Source of the DNA: a virus
Length of the DNA stretch: 25,587 nucleotides
IMG/VR virus record: IMGVR_UViG_3300042305_001426
Span: 1 to 25,587 of that record
Direction: 5' to 3' (one strand)
The notes under the pieces: generated by a model
Told to the model about the DNA's origin: nothing
The model's database searches: none
The model's input: the letters and a program-made list of their open reading frames with translations, nothing else
Part shown: in pieces, positions 14,851 through 25,587 of the stretch
Layout of the letters: each line of letters begins with the position of its first letter
How positions within the stretch are numbered: position 1 is the first letter of the stretch
Made by a program: the position numbers and the translations under genes

Positions 14851-16296
14851 ATGATCGCCAAGTGGCTCGGACTTATCGAAGCCGGTCGGTTATCCTCCGG
14901 AGGAGGATCGCCCCTCGGAGATGCGACAGTTTGGAACTCGATCACAAACTGGACCGACTTCGGGACCATTCCTGGACCGCTCCGGGTTGGCGATCTTGTA
15001 TTGGTTACGGACCTCCTACCGGGATTCGGGATCGCACAATATAACGGATCCGACTGGGAGTTGTCACAAGCTGTCTTTCCGACGAAAGCCGACCTCGAAG
15101 CGTTCCCGGAGCTCGTCGTTTCGGGAGCGATTGCGATCGTCGGGACCGGAGTTGAGACAGATCCGATATACTACTCCGACGGGACGACGTGGTTCCGGAC
15201 TCCGGACGGAACGCGTTATATCTATCCGAACGAGCTCGATTGGGCATCACTCCCGACACAAGACACGATCCTCAACAACGATGAGGTCGGAGTCGATGAT
15301 CTCGGGACTCCTCACAGTTCCGGGACGGCGCAGCGCCACGGCAACGAGTGGCGGCTGATCGAGGGCAAGTTTCAGAGCGTTGCGGACATGGTCGCTTTCG
15401 ACGTGGCGAACCCGGTACACACCGACGCCATCGGGCTCGTGAAGTCCGGCGGTGGGCATGATGAGGAGGCCATCGCGTACAGCTATCAGGGCGGCAATTG
15501 GTTGCGTTTCGGAACGACCACGACGGCGGGCTATGCGTGGACGCTTTCGAGCATCCGCGACTTCTCGGCCATTGGCTTGCAAGATGGCGACTTCGGGGTG
15601 TTTACGCCTTCGGGCGCACAGCCCATTCTGCTACGATACAAGGCAGCTTGCACCACTGCGTATGGTAGCCCCGTGCAGGCGTGGATGACTCCGATTGCCT
15701 ACGCAGGCACGCCCGTCATGCAGGCATGGACGGACGGAACGGAATCAAACGTCACGCTTGCTGCGCAAGGCTGGACGGTGGTCAACGATGCGGGGTGCAC
15801 CGTTACGGCAACGGGCGGCTTCCAAAGGTTTGCAACTTCCGCGCTTGCGGCGTCTGCTAGGCTTCGGTGTCTGGTTGGCTCTGTCACATCAACGACGCGA
15901 TTCGAGTGTCTGTTTCAGGCCCGGGCATCAACCGGGGCGTCTGACACGACCGCCCAACCGGTTGTTCTTGGAGACGGAACAAGAGGGACCGTGTTCGGTC
16001 AAGTCGGGTCGGCGGGGCTCGGGTTCAAAGACTTTGTATTTGGAGGGCCGCAGCAAACCCCCCTAAGAAACGCAGTCGCTCAAAGCCTTCCCTCTCTGGC
16101 ATCGGACCCCTTTACATGTCTTGTCAGAGACGAGGGGCGAACGGTGTTTAATTCCGCGAGCGTGGACGGGCTGCACTTTGCGGATTATCTGCGCAATTTA
16201 CAAAGTACCGCGTTCAACGGCTTTCAGGTATCCGCACAGGGTAAGGTCGGCACAGCCGCCACTCTTGACTACCGTGGCCAGATCATCACCTACTGA
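14851..16296 (+). CDS. Modular tail fibre, chimeric
   Basis: The 481-residue protein has a repeated module with the form 'D/E-x-G-V/L-V-x-x-D-x-x-x-G-x-A-Q-x-x-G-x-W-x-L' then 'F-x-x-x-A-D-x-x-A/E-F' then 'A-I-x-L/V' and 'Y-x-x-G-x-x-W-x-R'. Copy 1 is about residues 45-116, copy 2 about 128-220, and a weaker copy 3 (QDGDFGVFTPSGAQPILLRY) about 231-292. Residues about 300-481 look like a LamG or concanavalin-type sandwich, the likely receptor-binding end. The start ATG 14851 has GGGAG upstream. Base and codon style changes at about codon 162: upstream is rich in GGA and TCGG words, downstream is rich in GGC and GCG. So copy 2 is itself a join between native and acquired DNA. The protein would sit at the tail tip and bind the cell surface. 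Confidence 0.76.
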   Translation: MIAKWLGLIEAGRLSSGGGSPLGDATVWNSITNWTDFGTIPGPLRVGDLVLVTDLLPGFGIAQYNGSDWELSQAVFPTKADLEAFPELVVSGAIAIVGTGVETDPIYYSDGTTWFRTPDGTRYIYPNELDWASLPTQDTILNNDEVGVDDLGTPHSSGTAQRHGNEWRLIEGKFQSVADMVAFDVANPVHTDAIGLVKSGGGHDEEAIAYSYQGGNWLRFGTTTTAGYAWTLSSIRDFSAIGLQDGDFGVFTPSGAQPILLRYKAACTTAYGSPVQAWMTPIAYAGTPVMQAWTDGTESNVTLAAQGWTVVNDAGCTVTATGGFQRFATSALAASARLRCLVGSVTSTTRFECLFQARASTGASDTTAQPVVLGDGTRGTVFGQVGSAGLGFKDFVFGGPQQTPLRNAVAQSLPSLASDPFTCLVRDEGRTVFNSASVDGLHFADYLRNLQSTAFNGFQVSAQGKVGTAATLDYRGQIITY

Positions 16297-16590
16297 GGCG
16301 ACTGATGACCATTCTTTTCGTGTACCGTTACACATGGGCAGGCGAGGCCCGGGCCTATTATGTGACGCACACAGACGGCGTCACGGTCGTTCGGAAGTTT
16401 GACGCCGACACGGGCGAAGTGGGCGCGGTCGTTTCATCGGTGCCTGCGGATCGCATGGCCGAGATTGAAGCGCACATCGCAGCGTCGTCGGTGGTTATCC
16501 CATGACCCCCCGCATCCCCATTCCCGTATACGACGGCGGACCCGACACCGGCACCCGCAACGACCGAGCCGACTATCTCCAGCCGATGTC
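15335..16590. other. Block of foreign base and codon style (mosaic cassette)
   Basis: Within this interval codons such as GGC, GCC, GCG and CAG are frequent, while on both sides glycine is nearly always GGA or GGG and TCGGA/CCGGA words are dense. The left change lies within about 30 bases of 15335 in the fibre gene, and the right change is between about 16560 and 16610 in the hydrolase gene. The block spans the fibre end, the small gene at 16305 and the first 20-35 codons of the hydrolase. The interior is not uniform: about 16000-16200 is richer in A and T. Edges are estimates by eye. Confidence 0.7.
16305..16505 (+). CDS. Small unknown protein, possibly fibre-linked
   Basis: The 66-residue protein (TILFVYRYTWAGEARAYYVT...) starts at ATG 16305 after GAGGCGACTG, nine bases after the fibre stop. 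It begins with a strand pair and ends in a short helix (ADRMAEIEAHIAASS). It lies wholly within the foreign-style block, so it probably travelled with the fibre end and could be a fibre partner or chaperone. No family is recognised. Its stop overlaps the ATG of the hydrolase (ATGA). Confidence 0.5.
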   Translation: MTILFVYRYTWAGEARAYYVTHTDGVTVVRKFDADTGEVGAVVSSVPADRMAEIEAHIAASSVVIP

Positions 16591-17179
16591 CGAGCGCTGG
16601 CCCGGAGGAGACCTCCGTTCGCTCGTCGATTGGCTCCAGGTCGAAAGCTCTCTCCGTTGGCTACCTCGGAAACGAGCGGACGGGACGCTCGCGACTTATT
16701 GCGATCACTATGCCGCCGACCTGATCGAGCAAGCGTGCGGACAACAACTGATCTCCGCTTGGATTTGGTGGACAGACGACGCAATCCGTCGACTCCGAGC
16801 CGGAGAGATCGTCCCGGTTGTCTACGGGCAGACTGTCGTTGAGCATGGTGCGCTCGGGTTATACCGTTGGATGCAACTTTGGGGCGATCAATTCGGATGG
16901 AGACGCTCCGGAGACGACTCCTCCTTGAGGACCGAGGTCTCGTCTCGATATACGATCGGACTCATCTTGACTCCCTCTCACGTCTCGGTTGTCGTTCCGG
17001 ACTCGCTGGAGGTCTCTCCAGGTACGTTGACTCCGACGAGTCCTCCGCTCCAGTCACAAGCCGGAAGTCGGAACGTCCGACTCTGGAGGCAGTCGGATTG
17101 GTACAAGACGAGGACCGGAGTCGTCCGAGTTTGGCTCGATCCGTCGAAGCTCGTCAACGTCACACGTCCGGAGAAGTGA
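16502..17179 (+). CDS. Candidate Cys/His cell-wall hydrolase (endolysin-like)
   Basis: The 225-residue protein carries TYCDHYAADLIEQACG at residues 65-80 and TPSHVSVVVPD at 157-167. A Cys near the start of a helix followed at about 90 residues by a His in a strand with a nearby Asp is the layout of NlpC/P60 and CHAP cysteine peptidases, and many phage lysins of this type show 'T-x-C-N/D-x-F/Y-x-x-D' then 'H-V-A/S-V-V'. C67 and H160 are the proposed catalytic pair. Between them are LYRWMQLWGDQFGWRR and RYTIGLIL, which fit the aromatic strand region of the fold. It lies just upstream of three tiny membrane-protein genes, as an endolysin would. There is no signal peptide. Codons 1 to about 30 belong to the foreign-style block, so its start region is chimeric. 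Confidence 0.58.
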   Translation: MTPRIPIPVYDGGPDTGTRNDRADYLQPMSERWPGGDLRSLVDWLQVESSLRWLPRKRADGTLATYCDHYAADLIEQACGQQLISAWIWWTDDAIRRLRAGEIVPVVYGQTVVEHGALGLYRWMQLWGDQFGWRRSGDDSSLRTEVSSRYTIGLILTPSHVSVVVPDSLEVSPGTLTPTSPPLQSQAGSRNVRLWRQSDWYKTRTGVVRVWLDPSKLVNVTRPEK

Positions 17180-17526: not shown

Positions 17527-17748
17527 ATGCCGCCCGAACTTTCCGAACTATTGACTCCAATGGGAGGAGGCGGAGTCGCTGGAGCGGTCGCATATGCGAT
17601 CGTCAGACTCGTTGAGATCAAAGCTGGACTCCCGAAGCTCAACGCAGACTTGGAGGCTCTCCGGACGTTGCATCTCTCTTGCGAAGCGAACGTCCGTCAA
17701 CTCCAAGCTCAAGTCGATCGGCTCATCTCCCAGCTTGGGCAATCTTGA
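17527..17748 (+). CDS. Small membrane/coiled-coil protein, lysis cluster
   Basis: The 73-residue protein starts at ATG 17527; a GTG at 17518 in the same frame would add three residues but has no upstream site, whereas GAGG at 17520-17523 lies just before ATG. Residues 12-30 form a Gly-rich hydrophobic helix (GGGGVAGAVAYAIVRLVEI), and residues 35-70 are a coiled-coil-like stretch (NADLEALRTLHLSCEANVRQLQAQVDRL). This is the layout of small spanin or holin-like proteins. The 3' end overlaps the convergent - strand gene by 40 bases. Confidence 0.55.
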   Translation: MPPELSELLTPMGGGGVAGAVAYAIVRLVEIKAGLPKLNADLEALRTLHLSCEANVRQLQAQVDRLISQLGQS

Positions 17749-18539
17749 GCTAATCGAGACCGACGGACGAATCCGAGACGAGCAAGGATTCGACTCGCTT
17801 GTTCCGGAGAGACAAGACCTCGGACAGATATCGAGCAACCTCGGACCGGACAGAATCCCGAGATCGACGGGACTCCGATTCGGTCCGCTATCTCGTCCGC
17901 TATCTCGTAAGGAACTCCAGCGATCTCGGAGAGAGCGAAGACGGTCGTCGGGATAGACGACCGAGAGACCGTCGACGAGCTCGGGATCGGTTCCAGGACT
18001 GGACGAGACGGAGACGGAGTCCAGAAAGAGAGATCGTATCCGACTTGCCGGAGGACGGATATCCGACGATATACCGTCGACAAGTCGGTCTGCCAAGACG
18101 CAGCGAGCAAGCCGACAGCGTTAGGCCAACCGACGACCGCTCTCATCTCTCGGAGCCATTCCTCCCGTCGTCTCCTTGCGTGCTCGGGAGTCTCTGGAGG
18201 TTGAATCGGGAGGAGCTCGGTCCGGACTGGGAGGAGTTCCGGAGTCGTCTTCGCTTTCGCTTTCGCTTTCACTTTCTCCAAAGCTTTCGCTCTAGCTATC
18301 TCCGAGGCTTTCCGAGCGGACTCCAGTCGTCTTTCTGACGTATCTCGTCGACTCGCTTCGACATCGTATCGTGTGAGATCGTATCCTGCCGCTCGGAGTC
18401 GCTTGAGCATCTGGTGAACGCTGGACCCTTGTCGGAAGCCGAAAGCTTGTCGGATCGTATCGTAAAGCGTTCCCGGGACGACCGTCGGGAGGAGCTCGAT
18501 CAACCTCCGATAATCGTCGTCGTTGTTGCGTGGTGCCAT
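17709..18539 (-). CDS. Putative DNA-binding protein with repeated helix-turn-helix modules
   Basis: The 276-residue protein is encoded on the - strand, ending inside the last + strand gene. Residues about 10-56 and 130-172 look like two copies of a helix-turn-helix-type unit: SSVHQMLKRLRAAGYDL (39-55) and STVYRRISVLRQVGYDL (154-170) align without gaps in their second helix and the following turn. A third possible unit lies at 200-258 (LSEIAGVPYEIADEIADRIG, then VSPEQASRILARLGFVRR). A Lys/Ala-rich linker (84-98, KALEKVKAKAKAK) separates the first two. The start ATG 18539 has GGAG upstream on the - strand. Probably a regulator or DNA organiser acting on phage or host DNA. No exact family is assigned. 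Confidence 0.58.
   Translation of the reverse strand: MAPRNNDDDYRRLIELLPTVVPGTLYDTIRQAFGFRQGSSVHQMLKRLRAAGYDLTRYDVEASRRDTSERRLESARKASEIARAKALEKVKAKAKAKTTPELLPVRTELLPIQPPETPEHARRRREEWLREMRAVVGWPNAVGLLAASWQTDLSTVYRRISVLRQVGYDLSFWTPSPSRPVLEPIPSSSTVSRSSIPTTVFALSEIAGVPYEIADEIADRIGVPSISGFCPVRGCSISVRGLVSPEQASRILARLGFVRRSRLAQDCPSWEMSRST
17721..17750. terminator. Possible bidirectional hairpin at convergence
   Basis: GCTCA (17721-17725) pairs with TGAGC (17746-17750), and inside it CCCA (17729-17732) pairs with TGGG (17736-17739) over a GCT loop. It lies at the 40-base overlap of convergent genes where a bidirectional terminator would be expected. There is no T-run, so this is weak. Confidence 0.25.
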
Positions 18540-23699: not shown

Positions 23700-24623
23700 T
23701 TAGACTTGTCGACGTCGGGACGACTGGACCGAAGCGACTGGAGATTGAACCTCCGTCGGAACGACTGGAGAGGTCTTCTCGGGACTCGGAGCGGAGACGA
23801 AGTCGGACGAGTCGCAGTCCTCGGACGCAACCGGGAGATCGGGAAACGAGAATCGGAGGAGAGACCCGAGCGTCGTTTGTCCAGGTGTCCGAGTGTTTAC
23901 CGTGACAGCAGGCCAACCGGGAGCGGGTTTCGTGATCGCGGTTGCGGTTGCGGAGCTCCAGCGGATGAGATGTTGGAGCGACTCTCCGCTCCGACGGACG
24001 GTCGCAAGTCCAACCGCGTTGAAATATTGGCCCATCGAGAACGGGAGCTTTTGTCCAGCGAGCATCGGGATCGTCGTCCGGACTTGTTGATCGTCGGTCC
24101 GGTCTTCGGCAAGGAACAAGAAGACCGTTGAGCAAGGGAGCGCTCGTTGTTGACTCCAGACCGCTTCGCAACCGGAGGTCAACTGGCCCCATTTCTCGAT
24201 TGAGAGGTTGACCGCTCCCGAGTCGAAGTCCAGTCGGTCCCGAGACCCGGATTCAACTCCAGCGAGCTTGTTGATCGCGAGTCGCTGGAGGTCTGTGAAC
24301 GAGTCAACGACGAGCGTTTGGAAGACGAAAGTCTGTCCCTCGATCGTCGCTTGAGAAGCCGGTTGACCGTCGATCTCGGTCGGTTGAGCGAGTTTGACCG
24401 CGTCGAAGACCTTTCGGAAGTCTTCCCAGCTTTCGACGAGAACGACCATCGCTTCCGGGTTGGCGGTCTGAATGGAGGCAAGACCTTGAGGTTCGGTCAA
24501 GACGATCAACGGTCTCGGAGACCTTGCGGCCCATTCCGTCTTTCCGGCGCCGCTTGCTCCGACGATTGCGATCTTGAGAATAGGTGCCCGCTTGTAACTG
24601 TCTTGAGCTCGTCCGATTCGCAT
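23700..24623 (-). CDS. Sak4/RecA-like recombinase ATPase
   Basis: The true start is ATG 24623 (307 residues), with AAGGACAG upstream; the longer frame to 24941 covers a neighbour's gene. Walker A is GASGAGKT (residues 22-29) and Walker B TLVVDS (103-108, D107) followed by TDLQRL. The core length and spacing fit the AAA_24/Sak4-type single-strand annealing ATPases of phages, which work with an SSB and a nuclease. Residues about 140-230 (WGQLTSGCEAVWSQQRALPCSTVFLFLAED) fit the ATPase core. The C-terminal 50 residues are Ser/Pro/Val-rich and look disordered. The neighbours, a DUF669 protein and a PD-(D/E)XK nuclease, support the call. Confidence 0.78.
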   Translation of the reverse strand: MRIGRAQDSYKRAPILKIAIVGASGAGKTEWAARSPRPLIVLTEPQGLASIQTANPEAMVVLVESWEDFRKVFDAVKLAQPTEIDGQPASQATIEGQTFVFQTLVVDSFTDLQRLAINKLAGVESGSRDRLDFDSGAVNLSIEKWGQLTSGCEAVWSQQRALPCSTVFLFLAEDRTDDQQVRTTIPMLAGQKLPFSMGQYFNAVGLATVRRSGESLQHLIRWSSATATAITKPAPGWPAVTVNTRTPGQTTLGSLLRFSFPDLPVASEDCDSSDFVSAPSPEKTSPVVPTEVQSPVASVQSSRRRQV

Positions 24624-24641
24624 CTCTGTCCTTTTGTGTTG

Positions 24642-24655
24642 GCAACGGTTGTTGC
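24642..24655. other. Short inverted repeat upstream of the Sak4-like gene
   Basis: GCAAC, GGTT and GTTGC make a 5-bp perfect inverted repeat in the 62-base gap between the nuclease stop and the ATPase start. It could be a small operator or hairpin. It is short, so chance is a serious alternative. Confidence 0.25.
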
Positions 24656-24685
24656 GTTGTGAGTTGTAAAGGAATCCTTGAAGAC

Positions 24686-25587
24686 TCAAGTCGTCGTCTC
24701 CGATAGTTCCGAGTGTCCGTCCTTCGACAGATCGACAGCGAAGCCGATGACGTCCTCCGGAGACCAGGACAGACAGATCGACGCGTAGGAGCAAAGTCGG
24801 TTGTATTGCCAACAGAGAGACGGTTCTCGGACGAACGTCGATCCGTGACGATGGAGAGCTTCCGAGACGACCTCTCCGAGTCTGGGAGAGGTTCCAGCTT
24901 CCCGAATCTTCTCCGAGCTCTCCAGGATTGAATCCCTCCAAGCTCGCATCTTTGTTCCACTTGCGTAGAGCTCCCGTCCGAGTCGGTCGATTGATTCCTC
25001 GGAGAACAATTCGACCTCTCGTCTATACCAGAAACCGGACTCGTCCCGAGCTCTCAACGCTTCGTGTGTTTCTCCGTACCATTCACAGTCCGAGAGCTTT
25101 CCCGGTTGTCCAGTCAACAACGCTCCGAGGTCTTGAATCGCTCGGAGAAAGTTGTCCGCAGTCGTCCAGGGTAGACCGGCAGTCTTTGCGAGACGCTTTC
25201 CGTCCTTGAGGACTGGGAGCGCTTCCGGAGTCTTTGGAGGCTTCGACTGGACGAGGTCGAAGACGACTCCGTCGACGTCGATTCCGTTCTCTCGCAGCAG
25301 ATAAGCGTATCCGACCGCTTGAGGAGACCGACGATTCTTCTCGATCCAATCTTGAGTCGAAGACGTCGTCTTGTGTTCGATGATGAAAAGCCGACCGTTG
25401 ATCCGCGCAACCTTGTCGATCTTTCCCGAGTAGGAGATTCGATGGGCTCCTCGTTGTTTCCCAGTCGTCCGGATCCTTGCGGAGAGAGTCCGCTCGTTCT
25501 CGATCACGTCCAGCGGTTCGTCTTTCCAGCGTTCGTGATATCCGACGAGAAGCGTCTTCGCTGTCGCGACGTCTTTTGCTAACGATT
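24686..25587 (-). CDS. PD-(D/E)XK exonuclease, RecB/Cas4-like, 5' incomplete
   Basis: The - strand frame is open to the right edge, so the gene starts outside; a GTG at 25507 could be called but upstream residues (LLVGYHERWKDEPLD) clearly continue the protein. Counting from that GTG, GKIDKVARINGRLFIIEHKTTS holds the nuclease acids D31 and E44 with K46 (the D... E-x-K signature), and SPQAVGYAYLL holds a Q-x3-Y motif (Q63, Y67) typical of the RecB/AddB nuclease family. Near the end, C232, C239 and C245 form C-x6-C-x5-C, as in Fe-S-cluster RecB-like and Cas4 nucleases, with the fourth Cys probably in the missing start. It would resect DNA ends for the neighbouring recombinase. Confidence 0.85.
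   Translation of the reverse strand, partial: SLAKDVATAKTLLVGYHERWKDEPLDVIENERTLSARIRTTGKQRGAHRISYSGKIDKVARINGRLFIIEHKTTSSTQDWIEKNRRSPQAVGYAYLLRENGIDVDGVVFDLVQSKPPKTPEALPVLKDGKRLAKTAGLPWTTADNFLRAIQDLGALLTGQPGKLSDCEWYGETHEALRARDESGFWYRREVELFSEESIDRLGRELYASGTKMRAWRDSILESSEKIREAGTSPRLGEVVSEALHRHGSTFVREPSLCWQYNRLCSYASICLSWSPEDVIGFAVDLSKDGHSELSETTT

Follow-up and report, generated by a model that had tools for sequence, protein, structure and literature searches.

A fibre-tip segment of very probable recombinant origin in an undescribed group of uncultured caudoviruses

Introduction

Fibre-tip mosaicism is a long-established, textbook way in which phages renew their probable host-recognition part. 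In Alteromonas phages A5 and V22, a fibre gene and the small gene just downstream are common to otherwise distant phages, and the host-recognition module comprises the tail fibre and a cognate chaperone, encoded by a partner gene of 195–240 aa (PMC10579305). In the stf and tfa mosaics that Rad52-like recombinases form between Lambda and defective prophages, a mosaic of >90% identity is flanked by diverged homologous sequence, the crossovers lie in fibre genes and an annealing protein is phage-encoded (PMC3945230). Gene transfers between distant phages are likewise seen as high-identity segments in otherwise distant genomes, and recombinases (with Sak4 among the families searched) are enriched in phages with recent transfers of this kind (PMC8136500). 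Annealing-type recombinases are associated with exchange between distantly related phages and tolerate divergence (PMC8136500, PMC3945230), and single-strand annealing activity is ascribed to Sak4 (PMC5928155).

Here we analysed the entire record of an uncultured caudovirus, 25,587 bases long and referred to below as the window. Positions 15328–16559 are very likely a mosaic segment that came from a third phage lineage, richer in G+C, and entered by homologous (homeologous) recombination. As further parts of this reading we infer a receptor-binding tip, a small-gene partner, a role for the phage's own recombinase and a change of host range.

Results

The phage group and its relatives

Profile searches showed that the window encodes a major head protein (phrog_1005), a primase/helicase, a Sak4-like annealing protein and an exonuclease. 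Three relatives were found in IMG/VR: G001 (IMGVR_UViG_3300042914_003282), L007 (3300044612_002388) and L008 (3300010354_009325). G001 and L008 share 81.6% nucleotide identity over 5.2 kb, in a match that stops at the fibre start, and L008 is the nearest kin of G001. A tblastn search of 50,697 GenBank phage records gave no match to the window's fibre end, downstream protein, 877-aa structural protein or head protein, nor to the tip of L008, and searches with the downstream gene and the 877-aa structural gene yielded no further group members. We found no description of the phage group in the collections searched, and the phage records searched contain no member of it. The window had no Rfam match and the relatives no tRNAs.

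Several short words are unevenly represented in these genomes. TTAA does not occur in the 24.3 kb of window flanks (all but 15330–16600), where 12.9 occurrences are expected; the window's sole TTAA, at 16148, falls within the block described below. CTGA and CCCC are also strongly depleted in the flanks, and these depletions suggest restriction avoidance or an unusual mutational bias. GATC occurs 2 times in G001 (L005, L006; 67 expected) and once in L008 (54.5 expected). Because GATC is nearly absent from these two phages yet occurs about 250 times in the window, the opposite avoidance in related phages suggests different restriction environments.

Composition and boundaries of the block

In sliding windows, tetranucleotide divergence formed a single sharp plateau at 15.3–16.5 kb (0.39–0.57, against a median of 0.19) rather than a smooth profile. 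Using an order-3 Markov comparison of the window flanks with the relative L007, taken as a G+C-rich donor-like model, we found that the top foreign segment, 15328–16559, scored 212.9 bits; the runner-up anywhere reached 15.7 bits and the maximum over 30 simulated windows was 20.6 bits. Across six model variants the left junction was most likely at 15326–15329 (95% ranges within 15308–15416) and the right junction at 16559–16575 (95% ranges within 16505–16588), the latter position resting on composition over ~60 nt. An earlier note on this DNA had placed abrupt changes at ~15335 and ~16590; both edges proved real and close by, with the right one about 15–30 nt further left than proposed.

Codon choice shifts with the block. 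For glycine, the 14 background genes use 240 GGA and 48 GGC codons and the block uses 6 GGA and 23 GGC (p = 2e-13), and choice also shifts for proline (p = 4e-8) and valine (p = 1e-6). The glycine and alanine shift on which the earlier note had relied is thus strong for glycine and weaker for alanine (p = 0.006).

From left to right, the block takes in the final two thirds of the fibre gene, a gene of 66 aa and ~20 codons at the start of the gene that follows (Table 1). All frames are open and, as previously claimed, both junctions lie inside them, in the fibre gene (14851–16296) and the downstream gene (16502–17179). The smaller parts also carry the foreign signal: the 66-aa gene scores +37.9 bits (maximum of 0.7 for equal windows in the flanks), and the score of the start of the downstream gene is equalled by no flank window of the same length.

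A weaker second bump in tetranucleotide divergence (0.30) occurs in a GA/CGA-rich stretch at 17700–18000. It underlies a minus-strand ORF at 17709–18539 with a distant homologue in L007.

Table 1. Positions of features in and around the block and of the candidate recombination genes.
Feature	Positions	Strand	Basis
Resident 5' part of the fibre gene: module 1 and start of the related module 2	14851..15327	+	window-like composition
Foreign 3' two thirds of the fibre gene: remainder of module 2 and C-terminal tip domain	15328..16296	+	best-segment start, codon shift
Part of the tip common to the window and G001 (95.5% nucleotide identity), up to the G001 contig end	15591..15886	+	nucleotide comparison
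Small 66-aa gene within the foreign block	16305..16505	+	foreign composition, homology to L007/L008
First part of the downstream gene, about 19 codons, foreign	16502..16559	+	+14.8 bits under the donor model
Resident rest of the downstream gene (putative lysis enzyme)	16560..17179	+	flank-like composition
Sak4-like ssDNA annealing protein, candidate recombinase	23700..24941	-	phrog_124, E=3e-16; AAA_24, E=4e-15
Phage exonuclease, PD-(D/E)XK, candidate partner of the annealing protein	24686..25507	-	phrog_1218, E=3e-12; PDDEXK_1, E=2e-5

A second phage with the same tip

Comparing the block and its flanks with other phages, as the earlier note had proposed, we found that identity between the window and G001 jumps from ~59% to 95.5% inside the fibre (15591–15884), where 94% of third positions in codons for the same amino acid match. 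Outside the fibre, identity averages 59% and never exceeds 73% in 2,713 windows of 300 nt. Homologous genes are 53–70% identical at the nucleotide level (28% in one poorly aligned gene), and same-amino-acid third positions in these other genes agree at 21–40%, about saturation. A recent phage mosaic is characterised by >90% nucleotide identity in the segment and genomes otherwise below ~70% (as in PMC3945230), and this is the pattern seen here, with a 95.5% segment against a 59% mean in 300-nt windows. As the earlier note had held, the exchange is recent when set against how far these phages have diverged. No single relative matched the entire stretch at uniform divergence; G001 is the only relative that carries the tip.

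The tip protein is 92% identical between the window and G001 and 35% identical between G001 and L008. The kinship of G001 with L008 thus conflicts with the similarity of its tip to that of the window, and such conflicting gene histories are a hallmark of exchange. Read from the sequences, the G001 match appears to be independent proof of exchange and, together with the compositional segment, bears out the view that a foreign cassette has recombined in.

These comparisons leave little room for the view that the block is native and simply unusual in its codons, as a fast-evolving adhesin under relaxed codon selection might be. Fibre tips do evolve fast, and homologous tips occur in other lineages (L007 and L008), but the edges are sharp and the shift lies within synonymous codons. 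Moreover, the third-position match with G001 is found only here, and fast evolution would lower identity rather than raise it. We consider a native origin very improbable for the block, and for 15591–15886 it is refuted by the identity to G001.

The G001 contig stops within the shared tip, at its position 1 (L001 10763), as expected if several phages in the sample carry the tip. One might therefore suspect a chimera, in which two related phages of the same sample were wrongly assembled and the block joined to the window's contig: the window and G001 are both metagenomic records, and a contig break is expected where phages share sequence. Against this, the reading frame is kept at both junctions, which lie inside homologous motifs, and the window alone would need two separate mis-joins. 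G001 also has this type of tip attached at another crossover point, and the two copies differ by ~5%, so that they do not stem from one mis-joined molecule. We regard a chimera of this kind as improbable, although an assembly artefact is possible at the G001 contig end, where the right crossover and the small gene lie beyond the sequence.

Donor and direction of transfer

We favour genuine exchange, and the shared stretch bears on its source. G001 has a G+C content of 47.7% genome-wide and 54–61% at the end that bears the shared tip, and in both genomes the shared stretch is described slightly better by the L007-like model than by that of G001 itself; the composition of the tip is foreign to G001 too. 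Native-like sequence in G001 runs to the equivalent of 15590, ~260 nt from the start of the foreign part in the window (15328), and as the left crossovers do not coincide, at least two exchanges are implied. At 15335–15590 the window and G001 are 59% identical, which is not above background, with short motifs that match well; the true donor is absent from this comparison.

Direct donation between the G001 and window lineages, without a third phage as the source of the shared part, would account for its 95.5% identity. The L007-type G+C-rich model, however, outperforms G001's own for the whole block as well as the shared stretch, and 15328–15590 is foreign in the window but resembles G001 no more than background. 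Direct donation is thus unlikely, though a transfer from the window lineage to G001 may have followed a first exchange. The simplest source is probably an unseen third, G+C-rich lineage. Since the donor was not found in searches, this origin rests on composition: a close tip was found only in G001 when IMG/VR, GTDB genomes, GenBank phages and PLSDB plasmids were searched with the tip, and a search of IMG/VR with the small gene found no donor.

Fibre modules, tip and small gene

Modules 1 and 2 of the fibre base align with each other (37% identity over 62 aa, E=3e-08), and fibre residues ~24–200 gave a confident beta-rich model of compact units predicted with fair confidence (pLDDT mostly 65–86). 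The fibre base lies at 14851–15507 in the window, 8539–9753 in L007 and 10001–10762 in L001 (G001). Module number varies, with L007 lacking module 2 and G001 most of module 1. The window's fibre N-module is 53–57% identical to those of L007 and L008, and tips of differing types sit on similar bases. The fibre is replaced distally and its N-terminal part is kept, the configuration expected of a receptor-binding-protein tip exchange. The tip had no Pfam, PHROG, NCBIfam or PDB match and no fold match; it was modelled at very low confidence (pLDDT ~25), and that of the downstream protein is unusable (pLDDT 37), structure prediction having failed for both because of a lack of relatives.

Different tip types on similar bases could also arise by programmed variation, through invertible or retroelement-driven switching. 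This we consider barely credible: the block occurs once in the window record, its edges bear no inverted repeats, and no reverse transcriptase or invertase was found among the proteins scanned (a subset of the ORFs in a record that may be incomplete).

Under exchange between lineages, the small gene would have travelled with the tip. It is a homologue of 82–84 aa genes that follow the fibre in L007 and L008 (30–32% identity); weak Rex matches were dismissed as chance. L007 and L008 are 82% identical in the tip, 73% in the small gene and 46% in the fibre N-module, and one contiguous 1,083-nt match crosses tip and small gene, which look co-inherited between these two phages. Between the window and L007/L008, the tips are about 30% identical and the downstream protein (225 aa), taken whole, 61–70%. 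The history of tip and small gene thus differs from that of their neighbours in two comparisons, and their joint inheritance, in the manner of a fibre and cognate chaperone module, is seen both in the window block and in the conserved block of L007 and L008. The outer limit of the older L007/L008 unit is not sharp, because the downstream protein is 68% identical there, little below the small gene. The small gene is presumably a tip-matched partner, either a chaperone or a tip protein. More tentatively, and with the balance tilted somewhat against it, tip and small gene might form a standing cassette that circulates among lineages of 47–62% G+C in what seem to be different restriction environments, its crossovers concentrated in the repeated fibre linker modules and tips repeatedly traded between phages of different hosts.

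The downstream gene had previously been called a hydrolase, an assignment that we could not confirm, as its protein had no family match and the fold was unusable. The protein is conserved in L007 and L008; its invariant YCDHYAAD motif and, further on, an SHVS motif are reminiscent of cysteine peptidoglycan hydrolases.

A proposed mechanism of exchange

The incoming DNA would have taken the place of the distal fibre, its small companion gene and ~19 codons at the start of the gene after that. The left crossover would fall within a conserved motif of the repeated fibre module (SGTAQRHGNEWRLIEG), at SGTAQRHGNEW of module 2, and that of G001 at another conserved motif, DGDFGVF; the right crossover would lie near IPIPVYDGG, at the start of the downstream gene. 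Crossovers within conserved protein motifs would have kept both genes in frame. Such positions would match what homeologous recombination predicts; an excess of nucleotide identity flanking the junctions would need the donor to be seen. The phage's own Sak4-like protein, whose match to the Sak4 family profile phrog_124 spans residues 120–319, plausibly catalysed the exchange together with the adjoining exonuclease.

Discussion

The tip is encoded by the distal end of a gene that is the last large structural one ahead of the putative lysis gene; from this position and by analogy with known modules (PMC10579305) the exchanged domain probably binds the receptor. That the swap altered host range is plausible and, in our judgement, more likely than not. 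The earlier note's view of the block as direct evidence of a recent host-range exchange is supported in part, as regards the exchange of a foreign cassette. The mosaic also suggests that phage lineages differing in base composition have at some time occupied the same host cell.

The locus offers a clean new example of receptor-binding-module mosaicism, in an undescribed phage group. It is unusually well resolved, with sub-gene junctions placed to tens of bases, a second phage in which the same tip begins at another crossover, and a gene for a likely recombinase elsewhere in the record. As in Alteromonas phages A5 and V22, fibre and adjacent small gene are involved together, but the fibre portion that moved here is confined to the distal part, and at 66 aa the partner gene is far shorter and its chaperone role putative (PMC10579305). 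The Lambda stf and tfa mosaics resemble this locus in their high-identity segment between diverged homologous flanks, their crossovers in fibre genes and their phage-encoded annealing protein (PMC3945230); here, in contrast, the phages are uncultured and known from sequence alone, and the candidate is Sak4-like rather than Rad52-like. Finally, the segment has the high identity in otherwise distant genomes that marks transfers between distant phages (PMC8136500), with the difference that the unit here is a sub-gene cassette, both of whose junctions lie inside genes.
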